DNA from: Serratia nematodiphila DZ0503SBS1
GTDB lineage: Bacteria; Pseudomonadota; Gammaproteobacteria; Enterobacterales; Enterobacteriaceae
NCBI RefSeq assembly: GCF_000738675.1
Contig: NZ_JPUX01000001.1
Location: 992,001-1,056,000, forward strand
DNA length: 64,000 nucleotides
Direction of reading: 5' to 3'
How positions within the stretch are numbered: the first letter of the stretch is position 1; each line of letters opens with the position of its first letter. A program made the translations under genes and the position numbers. Below are positions 43,105 through 55,058 of this stretch, piece by piece. The notes under the pieces were generated by a model. That model saw only the letters and a list, made by a program, of their open reading frames with translations, had not been told where the DNA came from and ran no database searches.

Positions 43105-44469
<1,365 letters not shown>

Positions 44470-44493
44470 GTTCGACCGATTCGGTTGCTAAAT

Positions 44494-44519
44494 AAAAACC
44501 CGCCGCGGCGGGTTTTTTT
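44494..44519 (+). terminator. Terminator after eno
   Basis: AAAAACCCGCC and GGCGGGTTTTT pair around GC-rich loop bases, followed by a run of seven T. It marks the right edge of the conserved mazG-pyrG-eno block. Confidence 0.93.
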
Positions 44520-44766
44520 ATGTTTTAAATTCGTGATGATTGTCAGTTTAATAATAAGTTTTTCATTGAAAGCGTGGTTTTGTTTAACCCGATAATTTCA
44601 TTAAAGATAGTAAACGCGATTATTTTATATTCCCATTTTGTTTGCTTTATAACTATTCGTTACTAGACTGCCAATAAGGCAGTTTATTTTCGCCGTTCTG
44701 CCGTGGACCTTCATCATCACCATACCTTAATACTGCCGGCTTGCTGGCCGGTTGAGCGAGGGCTTG
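44520..44766. other. AT-rich region upstream of the FAD oxidoreductase gene
   Basis: This 247-base stretch is clearly more AT-rich than the window as a whole. I found no credible gene. ACTGCC and GGCAGT (44667-44672 with 44678-44683) form a small hairpin followed by TTATTTT, which could attenuate transcription entering the cassette. A weak GC-rich dyad lies just before the start codon near 44735-44751. No promoter stands out well enough to call. Confidence 0.5.
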
Positions 44767-45957
44767 ATGCGACAACGAATCATCATTGTCGGCGGTGGAA
44801 CCGGCGGCACCATCCTGGCCAATTTATTGGCCGCAAAATTACACCGGGAAATTATTAATAATAAAGTCGAGTTATTAATGATATCGGATTCACCGCTGCA
44901 TTATTACAAACCGGCGTTTATGTATGTGGCGTTCAATGCTTTTTTCAAGCAAGAGCTCACGCGCTCACAGCGGAGTTTATTGCGGCCCGAAATACAGTTT
45001 ATTATTGATAAAGCGGAATCTTTCGATTTAAAACAGCGAAGTATAGCGACGCAAAGCGGTAAATTTTATTCCTATGATTTTCTGGTTTTCGCCACCGGCT
45101 GCGTACCCTGGCCAGAGCGCATCGAAGGATTGGCGCAGGCGGGCGATCATTTTTACCAGTATCAGGCCGCCAGGCGGTTAGCGCATAAATTGGCGACGAT
45201 CGAGAAAGGCCGCATTTTCATCACCGTGTCCTTCCCTGAAACGCCCAACGTGCCCCACCAGTGCGGTATCGCCCCGATCGAAACCACCCTGATGCTGGAT
45301 GACTACCTGCGGCGGCGCGGCGTGCGCAAGGCGGTAGAGATTGTGTACACCTATCCGACCATTTCTCAACTCTTGCGTAACTGCCTGTTTTTACAGCGCC
45401 CGACAGGCGAAGCGCTACCCGCCATTTTTGCCGCACGTGACATTCTCCACCAGCGTGGGTTTACCCTCAGCCGGGTAGACGCCCAACGTAACATCGCCTA
45501 TTCCGCTGAGGGGGAAGAGCAGCCGTTCGACATTCTGATGGCAACGCCGCCGATTCGCGCAGTCGAGGCGGTGCGCAATACCGGGTTGAGCGAGAGTCAA
45601 AACGGTGAAGGCTGGCTGCCGACCGATCATCAAACGCTGCAGGTCTACGGCCAACAGGGCGTGTATGTCATAGGCGATACCGTGGATTTGCCGGTCAGCA
45701 AGGCCGGCGGCTCTTGCCATAATCAGGCGCCGGTCATTGCCGACAACATCGTGGCGGAAATGCGGCTGGGCCAAACCGTGAGCCATTATGACGGCAAGGT
45801 GCAGGCGGTCGCGCAAATGGGGCTGAATGCCGGCATGCCGCTGGTGTACGACTACCGTCACGACGTGCTGCCGACGCCCGCCACCAAGGTGGGCGGCATG
45901 CTGCGCAATGGGTTTAACCGCGGCCTTTACTGGGCCACGGTAAGGGGGATGCTATGA
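44767..45957 (+). CDS. FAD-dependent oxidoreductase, sulfide:quinone reductase-like
   Basis: The 396-residue protein has a two-dinucleotide-fold flavoprotein layout: RIIIVGGGTGGTILANLL at residues 4-21 binds FAD, LVFATGC at 106-112 closes the first fold, and GVYVIGDTVDLP at 298-309 is the second FAD motif. The segment HQCGIAPIETTLMLDDY (Cys166) matches the CxxxPxE region around the central catalytic cysteine of sulfide:quinone reductases. However, no cysteine follows Cys317, where the second essential one usually lies. I chose the ATG at 44767 (GAGGG five bases upstream) over a TTG at 44752. The first 300 bases are AT-rich. It overlaps the next gene by four bases. Function is inferred only; sulfide, persulfide or thiol oxidation feeding quinone is plausible. 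Confidence 0.75.
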   Translation: MRQRIIIVGGGTGGTILANLLAAKLHREIINNKVELLMISDSPLHYYKPAFMYVAFNAFFKQELTRSQRSLLRPEIQFIIDKAESFDLKQRSIATQSGKFYSYDFLVFATGCVPWPERIEGLAQAGDHFYQYQAARRLAHKLATIEKGRIFITVSFPETPNVPHQCGIAPIETTLMLDDYLRRRGVRKAVEIVYTYPTISQLLRNCLFLQRPTGEALPAIFAARDILHQRGFTLSRVDAQRNIAYSAEGEEQPFDILMATPPIRAVEAVRNTGLSESQNGEGWLPTDHQTLQVYGQQGVYVIGDTVDLPVSKAGGSCHNQAPVIADNIVAEMRLGQTVSHYDGKVQAVAQMGLNAGMPLVYDYRHDVLPTPATKVGGMLRNGFNRGLYWATVRGML

Positions 45958-46358
45958 CGGGAAGCACGGTGCATGCGGCTGACCTGCAATCATTGGCGGC
46001 GTTGCTCGAGAAACTGCAGCCGCTACTGGCGGGTGGCCGGTTGGATAACGTGGTCGATCTGTTGTCGCTGCTGTCGGACGTGGTGGATATTGCCGACAAC
46101 GCGCTGGTGGAGAAACTGGCCGGCGTCTTTGAAGGTTTGGTGACCCTCGGCTGGGAAGGCGGAACGGCGCTGCAGATGGCGCACAGCGAGCTGCAGTTGA
46201 ATCCTCCACCGGCCAGTTTTCGCGCGCTGTACGCCTTGCTGAAGCAGCCGGATACCCTGCTGGGGTTAACGCTGCTGCTGCGTACTTTACAAATCATCGG
46301 CCAGCGCACGCGAGACAGCGCGTTGCCGTCAGCCCTGTCAGATGAATCGTCGAATTAA
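45954..46358 (+). CDS. DUF1641 family protein
   Basis: This 134-residue protein has no signal peptide and is almost entirely helical in pattern. The segment LYALLKQPDTLLGLTLLLRTLQIIG (about residues 94-118) fits the DUF1641 (PF07849) family, whose members often neighbour SQR-like flavoproteins or formate dehydrogenases; their job is unknown. The start overlaps the flavoprotein stop (ATGA), so the two are almost certainly made together and may form a complex or a membrane-association unit. The methionine gamma-lyase gene starts 30 bases later behind a strong AAGGAG site. Confidence 0.75.
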   Translation: MTGSTVHAADLQSLAALLEKLQPLLAGGRLDNVVDLLSLLSDVVDIADNALVEKLAGVFEGLVTLGWEGGTALQMAHSELQLNPPPASFRALYALLKQPDTLLGLTLLLRTLQIIGQRTRDSALPSALSDESSN

Positions 46359-46388
46359 GCTTCACCCACTCAGGTAAGGAGTTGTGTT

Positions 46389-47585
46389 ATGTCCGCTACA
46401 GCAGTTGGCCACGACTTTGCCACCCGGGCTATTCATTACGGCTACGATCCTCAGCGGTATCAGGGGGCACTGTCTCCGCCGGTGTTTATGAGCTCTACGT
46501 TTGCTTTTCCCACGGCGGAATACGGCGGCGCCTGCTTTGCCGGCACCGAGCCGGGGTACTTTTATTCGCGTATCGCCAACCCGACGTTAAACCTGCTCGA
46601 GCAACGCATCGCCAACCTGGAGGAAGGGGAAGCTGCGGTGGCGTTCGCTTCCGGTATGGGGGCGATCACCGCGTGTTGTTGGACGCTGCTCAGACCGGGT
46701 GATGAGCTGATTGTCGACGAAACCGTCTATGGTTGCACCTTCAGCTACTTTCATCATGGTCTGGCGCGCTTTGGCGTCAAGATAACCCACGTTGATCTGA
46801 CCCGGCCGGAGCGGTTGGCGGCGGCCATTGGACCGCGTACCCGCCTGGTGTATTGCGAAACGCCGGCCAATCCCAATATGCGTTTGATCGATATCGCCGC
46901 CGTGGCGGAGATCGCCCATCGGCATCATGCGCTGTTGCTGGTGGACAACACCTACTGTACGCCCTATCTGCAGCGGCCTTTGGCGCTAGGCGCCGATATC
47001 GTGGTGCACTCGGCGACCAAGTACCTCGGCGGGCACGGCGATCTCCTGGCCGGGATCGCGGTGACGCGTCAGGCGTTGGCCGAGGCGATCCGTCTGGAGG
47101 GGCTAAAGGACATGAATGGGGCGGTACTGTCGGCGCAGGATGCCGCGCTGGTGCTGCGTGGGATGAAAACTTTGCCGCTGCGCATGGATCGTCATTGCGA
47201 TAATGCGCAGCGCCTGGCGGAGATGCTGACGGAGCATCCGGCGGTCGAGCGGGTATATTACCCCGGCCTGGCGAACTTCCCTCAGCATGCGTTGGCGCAG
47301 CGGCAAATGGCGCGCCCCGGCGGCATGCTGGCGTTTGAGCTGCGGGGTGGCCTGTGTGCAGGCATTCGCTTCCTCAATGCGCTGCAGCTCATCTTGCGCG
47401 CGGTCAGCCTGGGCGATTGCGAAAGCCTGGCGCAACACCCGGCCAGCATGACGCACTCGGCCTACACGCCTGAAGAGCGGAAACGGCACCACATCAGCGA
47501 GGGGCTGGTGCGGCTGTCCGCCGGGCTGGAGGCGTTTGACGATCTGCAGGCGGATATCCTGCAGGCGCTGGCGCAGGCGCAATAA
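46389..47585 (+). CDS. megL: Methionine gamma-lyase
   Basis: This PLP enzyme splits L-methionine to methanethiol, 2-oxobutyrate and ammonia, and releases hydrogen sulfide from homocysteine or cysteine. The 398-residue protein aligns end to end with what I recall of Pseudomonas putida MGL. All diagnostic residues are at the same numbers: Tyr114, Cys116 (VYGCTF, the residue that separates MGL from cystathionine gamma-lyases), Lys211 carrying PLP (HSATKYLGG), and Lys240-Asp241 (GLKDMNGAV). Tyr59 and Arg61 (FYSRIANP) contact the neighbouring subunit's PLP. It is the third gene of the cassette and ends at a terminator. Confidence 0.93.
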
Positions 47586-47608
47586 AAAAACCCGCCGCAG
47601 CGGGTTTT
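47584..47608. terminator. Terminator between the lyase and the permease
   Basis: AAAACCCGC and GCGGGTTTT form a 9-bp stem around CGCA. The seven A on the left make it a strong terminator for the minus-strand permease transcript; on the + strand only four T follow, so it is weaker for the lyase. Confidence 0.85.
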
Positions 47609-47622
47609 AGCCGAAGCGAGCG

Positions 47623-49017
47623 TTACATCTGTTGCGTCGCTGTGGTCACCGGCGAACCGCCGCCTTTTTTGCGCACCCACAGCCAGTAAGCCGCGGTGAG
47701 GAACGCGATCCACACCAGCCCGACATACAGGGCGATGCGGCTCTCTTCGAAGTAGCCGAGCAGGCCGATGACGAACGCCATAAAGGCGGTCGCCAATGCC
47801 GGCGCCACCGGCCACCACGGCACCGGGAAACTCAACTGACGGGTTTCCTCCGGCGACAGCGTGCGGCGCATGACGATCTGCGACAGCAGGATCATCAGCC
47901 ACACCCAGACGGTGGCGAAGGTAGCGATTGAGGCGATGATCATGAAGACCTTCTCCGGGATCAGGTAGTTGAGCACCACCGCCAGCAGCAGGGCGACCGA
48001 CATCACCAGCACCGTCATCCACGGCACGCCGCTGGCGGTCAGCTTGGTGAAGCTGCGCGGCGCTTGGCCGTCCTGCGCCATGCCGTACATCATGCGGCCG
48101 GCGCCGAAGATGTCGCTGTTGATGGCCGAAATGGCCGCGGTGATCACCACCACGTTCAGCACGTTGGCGGCGGAGCTGATGCCGAGGTTGCTGAAGATCT
48201 CAACGAACGGGCTGCCGTTCTGGCCGATGCTGTTCCACGGATAGATCGCCATCAGCACCGTCAGCGTCAGCACATAAAACAGCAGGATGCGCACCGGCAC
48301 GGCGTTGATCGCCTTCGGCAGCACTTTGGCGGGGTCTTTCGCCTCGCTGGCGGTGATGCCGATGATCTCGATGCCGCCGAAGGCGAACATCACCACCGCT
48401 AATGACGCGACCACGCCGCCGATGCCGTTAGGCATAAAGCCGCCGTGCTGCCACAGGTTGCTGATGCCGGTGGCGTGCTGGGCTTGCCCGAAACCGAACA
48501 GCATTACCGCCGCGCCGCCGACGATCATCGCCACGATGGCGGCGACCTTGACCAGCGACAGCCAGAACTCCAGCTCGCCGAAAACCTTGACGCTGCACAG
48601 GTTGAGCGCGCCGATAAACAGGATGATGCTGAGCACCCAGACCCACTGGGCGACGTCCGGGAACCACAGCCCCATATAGATGCCGAAGGCAGTGACGTCC
48701 GCCAGGGCGACGATCACCATTTCAAAGGTGTAGGTCCAGCCGGTGAGGAACCCGGCCAGCGGGCCGAGATAGTGGCTGGCGTAGTGGCCGAACGAGCCGG
48801 AAACCGGCTGGTGCACCGCCATTTCGCCCAGCGCGCGCATCACCATGAATACCGCCGCGCCGCCCACCAGGTAGGCCAGTAGCACCGCCGGGCCGGCCAG
48901 CTGGATGGCGCCGGCGGAGCCGTAGAACAGGCCGGTGCCGATCGCCGAGCCGAGAGCCATGAAACGGATATGCCGCGCGTTTAGTCCGCGTCTGAGTTGT
49001 GTCGTTTCGTTACGCAT
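47623..49017 (-). CDS. Amino acid permease, ProY/HutT-like, probable histidine importer
   Basis: This 464-residue APC-family permease has twelve hydrophobic segments. The N terminus ([28 protein letters not shown]) and the [20 protein letters not shown] loop resemble E. coli ProY and Pseudomonas HutT closely. It lies 102 bases downstream of hutH on the same strand with no operator in between, so it is probably the last gene of the hut transcript and imports histidine; proline remains possible from sequence alone. I chose the ATG at 49017 (GGGAAG upstream) over one at 49095 that would add a cysteine-rich, non-family extension. Confidence 0.88.
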
Positions 49018-54386: not shown

Positions 54387-55058
54387 ATGCAGTACCCGAT
54401 CAACGAGATGTTCCAAACCTTGCAAGGCGAAGGCTTTTTCACCGGCGTGCCGGCCATTTTCATCCGCCTGCAGGGCTGCCCGGTAGGGTGCAGCTGGTGC
54501 GACACCAAACATACCTGGGAAAAGGAAGCCCATCGGGAAGTAGACCTGCAACGGATCCTGGTCAAAACAGAAGAGAGCGACGCCTGGGGCAATGCCAGCG
54601 CCGAGCAGCTGCTGGCGGTGATGCGTCAGCAAGGCTACACCGCGCGTCATGTGGTGATCACCGGCGGCGAACCCTGCATCTACGATCTGGTGCCGCTGAC
54701 CGAGCTGTTCGAACAGCACGGCTACCGTTGCCAGATTGAGACCAGCGGCACCCACGAAATTCGCTGTTCCGCCAACACCTGGGTGACGGTTTCGCCCAAG
54801 GTGAATATGCGCGGCGGCATGAAGGTGTTGGATCAGGCGCTGCGGCGCGCCGACGAGGTGAAGCATCCGGTGGCGCGCGAGCGCGACATCGAGGCACTGG
54901 ATGCGCTGCTGGCGACGTTGCAGGATGACAAGGCGCGCATTATCGCACTGCAGCCGATCAGCCAGAAAGAAGAGGCGACCCGTCTGTGTATTGAAACCTG
55001 TATCGCGCGCAATTGGCGGCTGTCGATGCAGACCCACAAGTATCTGAACATCGCCTAA
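54387..55058 (+). CDS. queE: QueE, 7-carboxy-7-deazaguanine synthase
   Basis: QueE is a radical SAM enzyme that contracts carboxytetrahydropterin to 7-carboxy-7-deazaguanine in the queuosine and preQ0 pathway. The start at 54387 (MQYPINEMFQTLQGEGFF, 223 residues) equals E. coli; an ATG at 54258 would add 43 residues of non-family sequence. The cluster-binding cysteines lie in CPVGCSWC near residues 31-38, in the C-x3-C-x2-C spacing typical of QueE, and VITGGEPC is the SAM-binding motif. The convergent queD next door makes its substrate. Confidence 0.97.
   Translation: MQYPINEMFQTLQGEGFFTGVPAIFIRLQGCPVGCSWCDTKHTWEKEAHREVDLQRILVKTEESDAWGNASAEQLLAVMRQQGYTARHVVITGGEPCIYDLVPLTELFEQHGYRCQIETSGTHEIRCSANTWVTVSPKVNMRGGMKVLDQALRRADEVKHPVARERDIEALDALLATLQDDKARIIALQPISQKEEATRLCIETCIARNWRLSMQTHKYLNIA

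Follow-up and report, generated by a model that had tools for sequence, protein, structure and literature searches.

A variant SQR-like flavoprotein, a DUF1641-type protein and a methionine gamma-lyase in a co-inherited gene block of Serratia and its relatives

Results

Organisation of the locus

The window, i.e. the whole stretch of 64,000 nucleotides that was analysed, corresponds to C1:992001-1056000 of the Serratia nematodiphila DZ0503SBS1 genome. Three consecutive genes on its forward strand encode an SQR-like FAD flavoprotein of 396 aa (44767..45957, with ATG at 44767 and the stop ending at 45957), a DUF1641-type protein of 134 aa (45954..46358) and a PLP-dependent methionine gamma-lyase of 398 aa (46389..47585). 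The first two genes overlap by four bases (ATGA); the lyase ORF starts 30 bases past the DUF1641 stop and is preceded by AAGGAG. These coordinates, the overlap, the gap and the arrangement as a single gene block were as given by an earlier, sequence-only reading, which had also correctly placed the block between eno (ending at 44469) and queE (54387-55052).

The upstream border of the block is a terminator-like hairpin 3' of eno (44494..44517, forward strand), detected by a terminator scan. Folding displayed another hairpin between the lyase and a convergent permease gene (47587..47608), which was terminator-like for the reverse strand only. Altogether, the terminator scan reported four such sites in the region against a shuffle mean of 4.5, i.e. 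no excess. A scan of the region found no sigma-70-like promoter on the forward strand 5' of the flavoprotein gene, no Rfam family scored above threshold in 44400-47700, and megablast of 44500-47700 against the E. coli collection gave no match. Gene spacing, together with the co-inheritance described below, suggests that the trio forms one transcription unit.

A 17-bp inverted repeat, ACTGCC-N5-GGCAGT (ACTGCCAATAAGGCAGT), was encountered upstream of the flavoprotein gene (44667..44683). Its 15-base core occupied the same place in 25 of the 28 fetched Serratia loci (some genomes having been fetched twice); the repeat is a candidate operator or leader hairpin. A role as operator of a wider regulon was unsupported: the full 17-base palindrome had one other site in its own genome, and additional sites across the genus were mostly one recurring, different sequence. 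Control by MetJ was also considered; in the accessible part of a study of its regulon, metboxes were reported for only one MegL group, in a few Shewanella (PMC3228920).

The methionine gamma-lyase

The lyase exceeded the cut-offs of both family models, with 698.4 bits for NF005695 (cut-off 666) and 573.5 bits for TIGR01328 (cut-off 549.7). Tyr59, Arg61, Tyr114, Cys116, Lys211, Lys240 and Asp241 of 1gc0, which we take to be the active site of the Pseudomonas putida methionine gamma-lyase, were all identical in the aligned window protein. Its proposed identity was thus upheld by family models and active-site residues alike. The likeness to the P. putida enzyme, a member of the same family, was established by sequence comparison; the window lyase sits in one block with flavoprotein and DUF1641 genes.

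Family and fold of the flavoprotein

Among the ten NCBIfam families listed for the flavoprotein, the best was NF049943 (type III SQR, selenoprotein subtype), at 243.7 bits and hence below the curated cut-off of 525 bits. The modelled structure, weak beyond residue 345, displayed the FAD-binding two-dinucleotide-domain fold of SQR. The top 15 entries of the structural comparison were all SQRs and ranked above NADH dehydrogenases, the nearest solved structure being human SQOR; type II NADH dehydrogenases, YjlD among them, were also structural relatives. Sequence and fold therefore both supported the SQR-like nature that had been assigned to this protein. Its nearest named relatives, among the best 80 of 201 loci found in named genomes, were from Serratia and displayed up to 98% identity.

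The second nucleotide loop reads VPHQCGIAPIE. It is devoid of GxGxxG, which in the second nucleotide domain is the NADH motif of type II NADH dehydrogenases, and it holds the first SQR cysteine instead. NADH is therefore an improbable electron donor for this flavoprotein.

A changed set of cysteines

Alignment with human SQOR placed Cys166 of the flavoprotein at Cys201, the first catalytic cysteine, and Ala347 at the site of Cys379, following YDGxxx. The numbering and catalytic roles of Cys201 and Cys379 are those we assume for the human enzyme, and the spacing of 178 residues agrees with them. Cys112, Cys166, Cys206, Cys317 and Ala347 were each present in all 120 homologues listed (of 742). 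A 19-row alignment included five rows from inside the clade (the window protein, P0070, P0103, P0012 and L111) and 14 from outside (L112-L119, three haloarchaeal proteins and three of the 11 paralogue loci L020-L030). The second SQR cysteine was displayed by 14/14 outside rows and the alanine by 5/5 inside rows, while Cys206 and Cys317 were missing from all 14 outside rows and Cys112 from 13 of them. Compared with type III SQR and human SQOR, the window flavoprotein thus lacks the second catalytic cysteine, replaced by Ala347, and carries additional invariant Cys206 and Cys317 (and Cys112).

Cys317 may act as a substitute second cysteine, and the changed set marks the whole clade, to which PA2566 of P. 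aeruginosa probably belongs. The sequence-only reading had suggested a quinone-linked flavoprotein that could oxidise the sulfur product of the lyase; its SQR-like part stood, down to the first cysteine, but the replacement of the canonical second cysteine had not been foreseen. Since this residue is missing, textbook sulfide oxidation should not be assumed for the protein.

The same genome also encodes an SQR-like paralogue with both canonical cysteines (C1:3621538; L126 6012-7668). The presence of canonical and variant forms in one genome hints at a different job, or a different condition, for each. Directly 3' of the canonical paralogue lies a gene of the Rdx family (SelW/SelT-like).

The DUF1641-type protein

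With 16.5 bits against Pfam PF07849, the window protein remained below the gathering cut-off of 21 bits; the empty result of a Pfam DUF1641 search of its own genome was accordingly rejected as a sensitivity miss. Thirteen of 27 aligned orthologues matched Pfam DUF1641 at E<=0.01 (best 5.4e-10), and profile comparison with three haloarchaeal DUF1641 proteins gave a probability of 92.9 and an E of 3.8e-7. The protein was predicted to be all-helical from a low-confidence model (pLDDT 67, pTM 0.31), for which Foldseek returned no usable fold match.

The two best PDB sequences found with the DUF1641 profile were YjlC (9snk) and 9pxk, the latter filed as 'NDH-2 membrane coupling protein'. Both were matched over nearly full length with E values of 0.041 and 0.074, weak and non-significant on their own. 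YjlC is, as we understand it, a member of DUF1641, and the same PDB entries contain YjlD, the structural relative of the window flavoprotein mentioned above. The Bacillus YjlC-YjlD system (9snk, 9pxk, model 9a63) thus resembles the window pair in combining a flavoprotein of two dinucleotide folds with a small helical DUF1641-type protein; it differs in that its donor is NADH, and the small proteins show weak sequence similarity (E 0.04).

Another parallel comes from Bacillus subtilis. According to the available text of one report, the DUF1641 protein ForE is co-purified with a menadione-reducing formate dehydrogenase carrying menaquinone-7, and formate dehydrogenase activity is about 50-fold lower without ForE (PMC8808070). 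ForCE is therefore alike in that a DUF1641 protein is essential to a quinone-linked oxidoreductase, whereas its catalytic subunit is a molybdenum/tungsten enzyme and not a flavoprotein (PMC8808070, in part); the window pair is known from its genes. In an Ignicoccus proteomics study, the FAD oxidoreductase whose locus number follows that of a DUF1641 protein increases along with it (PMC3149612). By analogy with YjlC and ForE, the window protein is best read as a membrane- or quinone-coupling subunit.

These parallels also bear on a donor other than sulfur. The flavoprotein could be an oxidoreductase transferring electrons from NADH or another non-sulfur donor to quinone and served by a DUF1641 coupling protein, like YjlD by YjlC. 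In its favour, the enzymes partnered by DUF1641 proteins include dehydrogenases for NADH and for formate, the structural relatives extend to type II NADH dehydrogenases, and the second SQR cysteine is missing. The second loop, which has the first SQR cysteine but no GxGxxG, speaks against it, as do the higher structural ranking of SQRs and the TusA genes neighbouring relatives of the pair (see below). We regard such a donor as very improbable.

Co-inheritance within the genus and the family

Of 30 genus genomes, 19 had all three genes contiguously and the other 11 had none of them, a co-occurrence with synteny, proposed beforehand as a check, that exceeds chance. Counting any flavoprotein-like match would give 23 of the 30, as a paralogue (26-29% identity) and a short stretch (42%) score too; neither was included. 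Among the 19 loci, G021 and G023 have a frameshifted lyase and G019 a broken DUF1641 gene. The DUF1641 match crossed a stop codon in nine of the 19 genomes, and in loci L033-L037 the N- or C-terminal ends of the DUF1641 proteins shift by a few codons.

The family was scanned across 392 genomes with thresholds of E<=1e-100 for the flavoprotein, present in 20, and E<=1e-130 for the lyase, present in 27. Lyases fell into 16 with 61-100% identity, called orthologous here, and 11 with 50-52%; none of the latter 11 genomes displayed the flavoprotein. Flavoprotein and orthologous lyase co-occurred in 15 genomes and were adjacent in 14, one of which (G190) had a flavoprotein match limited to residues 156-396. 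The lyase matches of G227 and G301 contained a TAA. In G303, the fifteenth genome, the DUF1641 gene was split, one part lying beside the flavoprotein and the other beside the lyase, ~200 kb apart (L127 3242-4484, L128 2138-3494). Each half adjoins a gene for a 330-aa DDE transposase, the two copies being near-identical, an arrangement expected from an insertion and a subsequent inversion. G230 displayed decayed flavoprotein fragments adjoining a lyase of intact length (L129 4832-5696). In five genomes the flavoprotein had no counted lyase: four belong to genus g93, and in the fifth, G021, the lyase is frameshifted.

The lyase occurring alone in most relatives, a pattern named beforehand as contradicting a cassette, was thus not seen for the orthologous enzyme: across the 392 genomes it always lay with the pair or with what is left of it, although the more distant lyase (~51% identity) does occur in 11 genomes devoid of the flavoprotein. 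A Fisher test on these counts (15/5/1/371) gave a p of 5e-22, which is merely descriptive since the genomes are related.

A wider flavoprotein-DUF1641 core

Scanning of named genomes yielded 201 loci, of which the best 80 were analysed. A DUF1641 match lay directly 3' of the flavoprotein in all 80 (shortened in L090), in line with the suggestion that the small protein is a dedicated partner. The lyase came next in 28 of the 80, all from Yersiniaceae or Morganellaceae: Serratia (8/9), Yersinia (3/3), Proteus (7/10), Providencia (9/10) and Moellerella (1/1). It accompanied the pair in none of the loci from Morganella (0/3), Enterobacter (0/3), Cedecea (0/1) and outside Enterobacterales (0/40). 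Two contigs end within 2.3 kb downstream: that of L086 lacks a lyase, that of L041 has one. In Proteus L069, about 65-80 residues of the lyase are left as a remnant; the order of loss differs here, lyase first in L069 and flavoprotein first in G230. For the 28 loci with lyase, flavoprotein and lyase trees both separated Serratia and Yersinia from Proteus, Providencia and Moellerella, a main split which joint inheritance predicts; finer branches were often unsupported. Of the three-gene cassette put forward by the sequence-only reading, the co-inheritance of the trio therefore held, but the lyase turned out to be a lineage-specific companion of a wider pair.

This distribution allows another explanation, in which the flavoprotein and its DUF1641 partner are a free-standing module for sulfide or persulfide oxidation, while the lyase, a gene of methionine catabolism, became attached to it in an ancestor of the enterobacteria and does not supply its substrate. 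The pair lacks an adjacent lyase in 52 of the 80 loci, including all 40 outside Enterobacterales, the lyase has its own ribosome site, and partners were lost singly (flavoprotein decayed in G230, lyase reduced to a remnant in L069 and frameshifted in G021 and G023). Against this stand the contiguity maintained across Serratia, Yersinia, Proteus, Providencia and Moellerella and the confinement of orthologous lyases to the pair or its remains in the family. We consider a module independent of the lyase less likely than a linked pathway.

Other companions were encountered elsewhere. In 14 of the 80 loci, all from Pseudomonas, the next gene resembled trans-aconitate methyltransferases (in L089 after another ORF call), a family assigned from one representative scoring below the cut-off. 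A thiol methylase function for this gene was regarded as speculative, given the same sub-threshold score. On plasmid pKLC102 of P. aeruginosa, the methyltransferase gene comes directly after those for the flavoprotein and the DUF1641 protein (L120 5956-8444), all three within the conjugation gene block. Two haloarchaeal plasmids displayed the order TusA, flavoprotein, DUF1641. On a Halobellus plasmid, two successive flavoprotein-DUF1641 pairs follow the TusA gene (L122 4001-7937). TusA was also found upstream in three distant proteobacterial relatives (L114, L115, L116), with a marginal DUF1641 match downstream in L116. The downstream ORF tested in L112, L113, L115 and L117 gave no DUF1641 match. 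An apparent fusion of flavoprotein and DUF1641 in Burkholderia (L107) was rejected because the 593-aa ORF lies in the DUF1641 frame and not in that of the flavoprotein.

The Pseudomonas aeruginosa homologue

The P. aeruginosa homologue P0070 has 395 aa and is 71% identical to the window flavoprotein. This length fits the stop at codon 396 given for PA2566 in the accessible part of one paper (PMC3697988), and PA2566 is likely the orthologue. As far as the available text of another paper goes, PA2566 is regarded as an SQR gene, and a double mutant of PA2566 and PA2345 releases H2S and has lower sulfane sulfur (PMC13295329). PA2564-PA2566 shift together in one transcriptome table, seen in excerpt (PMC7775676). 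Both pKLC102 and the likely counterpart PA2566-PA2564 resemble the window locus in a 71% identical flavoprotein and an adjacent DUF1641 gene; they differ in their third gene, which is trans-aconitate methyltransferase-like and not a lyase.

Discussion

The explanation that we favour, if by a modest measure, is a linked pathway in which sulfide or methanethiol made by the lyase would be oxidised by a membrane-coupled SQR variant, with electrons passing to respiration. From methionine (or homocysteine, or cysteine), the lyase would release methanethiol (or sulfide) along with ammonia and a keto acid. The flavoprotein would oxidise the released sulfide or thiol by means of Cys166 and its flavin, and two electrons would pass to quinone. 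The DUF1641 protein would dock the flavoprotein on the membrane or complete a quinone site, as YjlC apparently does for the NADH dehydrogenase YjlD and ForE for a menaquinone-linked formate dehydrogenase.

Several observations argue for such a linkage. All 16 family genomes with an orthologous lyase displayed the flavoprotein, be it adjacent (14), in the transposase-split cassette (1) or as fragments (1). Sulfur-carrier genes (TusA) adjoin the pairs of relatives, and H2S is released when PA2566, the likely orthologue, is deleted together with a second SQR gene, according to the accessible part of that report (PMC13295329). The linkage is weakened by the replacement of the canonical second cysteine in every homologue listed, by the NF049943 score under the cut-off, by a YjlC match that is non-significant alone and a DUF1641 model without fold match, and by the many pairs without adjacent lyase. 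Moreover, the P. aeruginosa phenotype stems from a double mutant, and the window's own genome has a canonical SQR-like paralogue.

A more specific proposal is that flavoprotein and DUF1641 protein form a membrane-coupled oxidoreductase transferring electrons from methanethiol, or another small thiol, to quinone. With the canonical second SQR cysteine lost and Cys206 and Cys317 gained, the enzyme would have switched from making sulfane sulfur to joining two thiols as a disulfide. The operon would then turn methionine into electrons for respiration and dimethyl disulfide. Bacteria that degrade methionine are known to form both methanethiol and dimethyl disulfide (PMC6955855). This proposal seems rather unlikely; it overlaps with the linked pathway.

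No description of the trio was found in the accessible open literature on DUF1641, subscription journals lying outside the search. SQRs, DUF1641 partners and the lyase are all of known kinds, and the putative operon with its cysteine change is a variant of these.

If the linked pathway holds, Serratia, Yersinia, Proteus and Providencia would couple methionine breakdown directly to the respiratory chain, and a thiol or sulfide that is toxic and malodorous would serve them as a respiratory substrate. The chemistry of the SQR clade with changed cysteines, which probably includes PA2566, is not transferable from the textbook enzyme. DUF1641, to our knowledge a widespread Pfam family without known function, would gain a general role in coupling soluble oxidoreductases to the membrane or to quinones.
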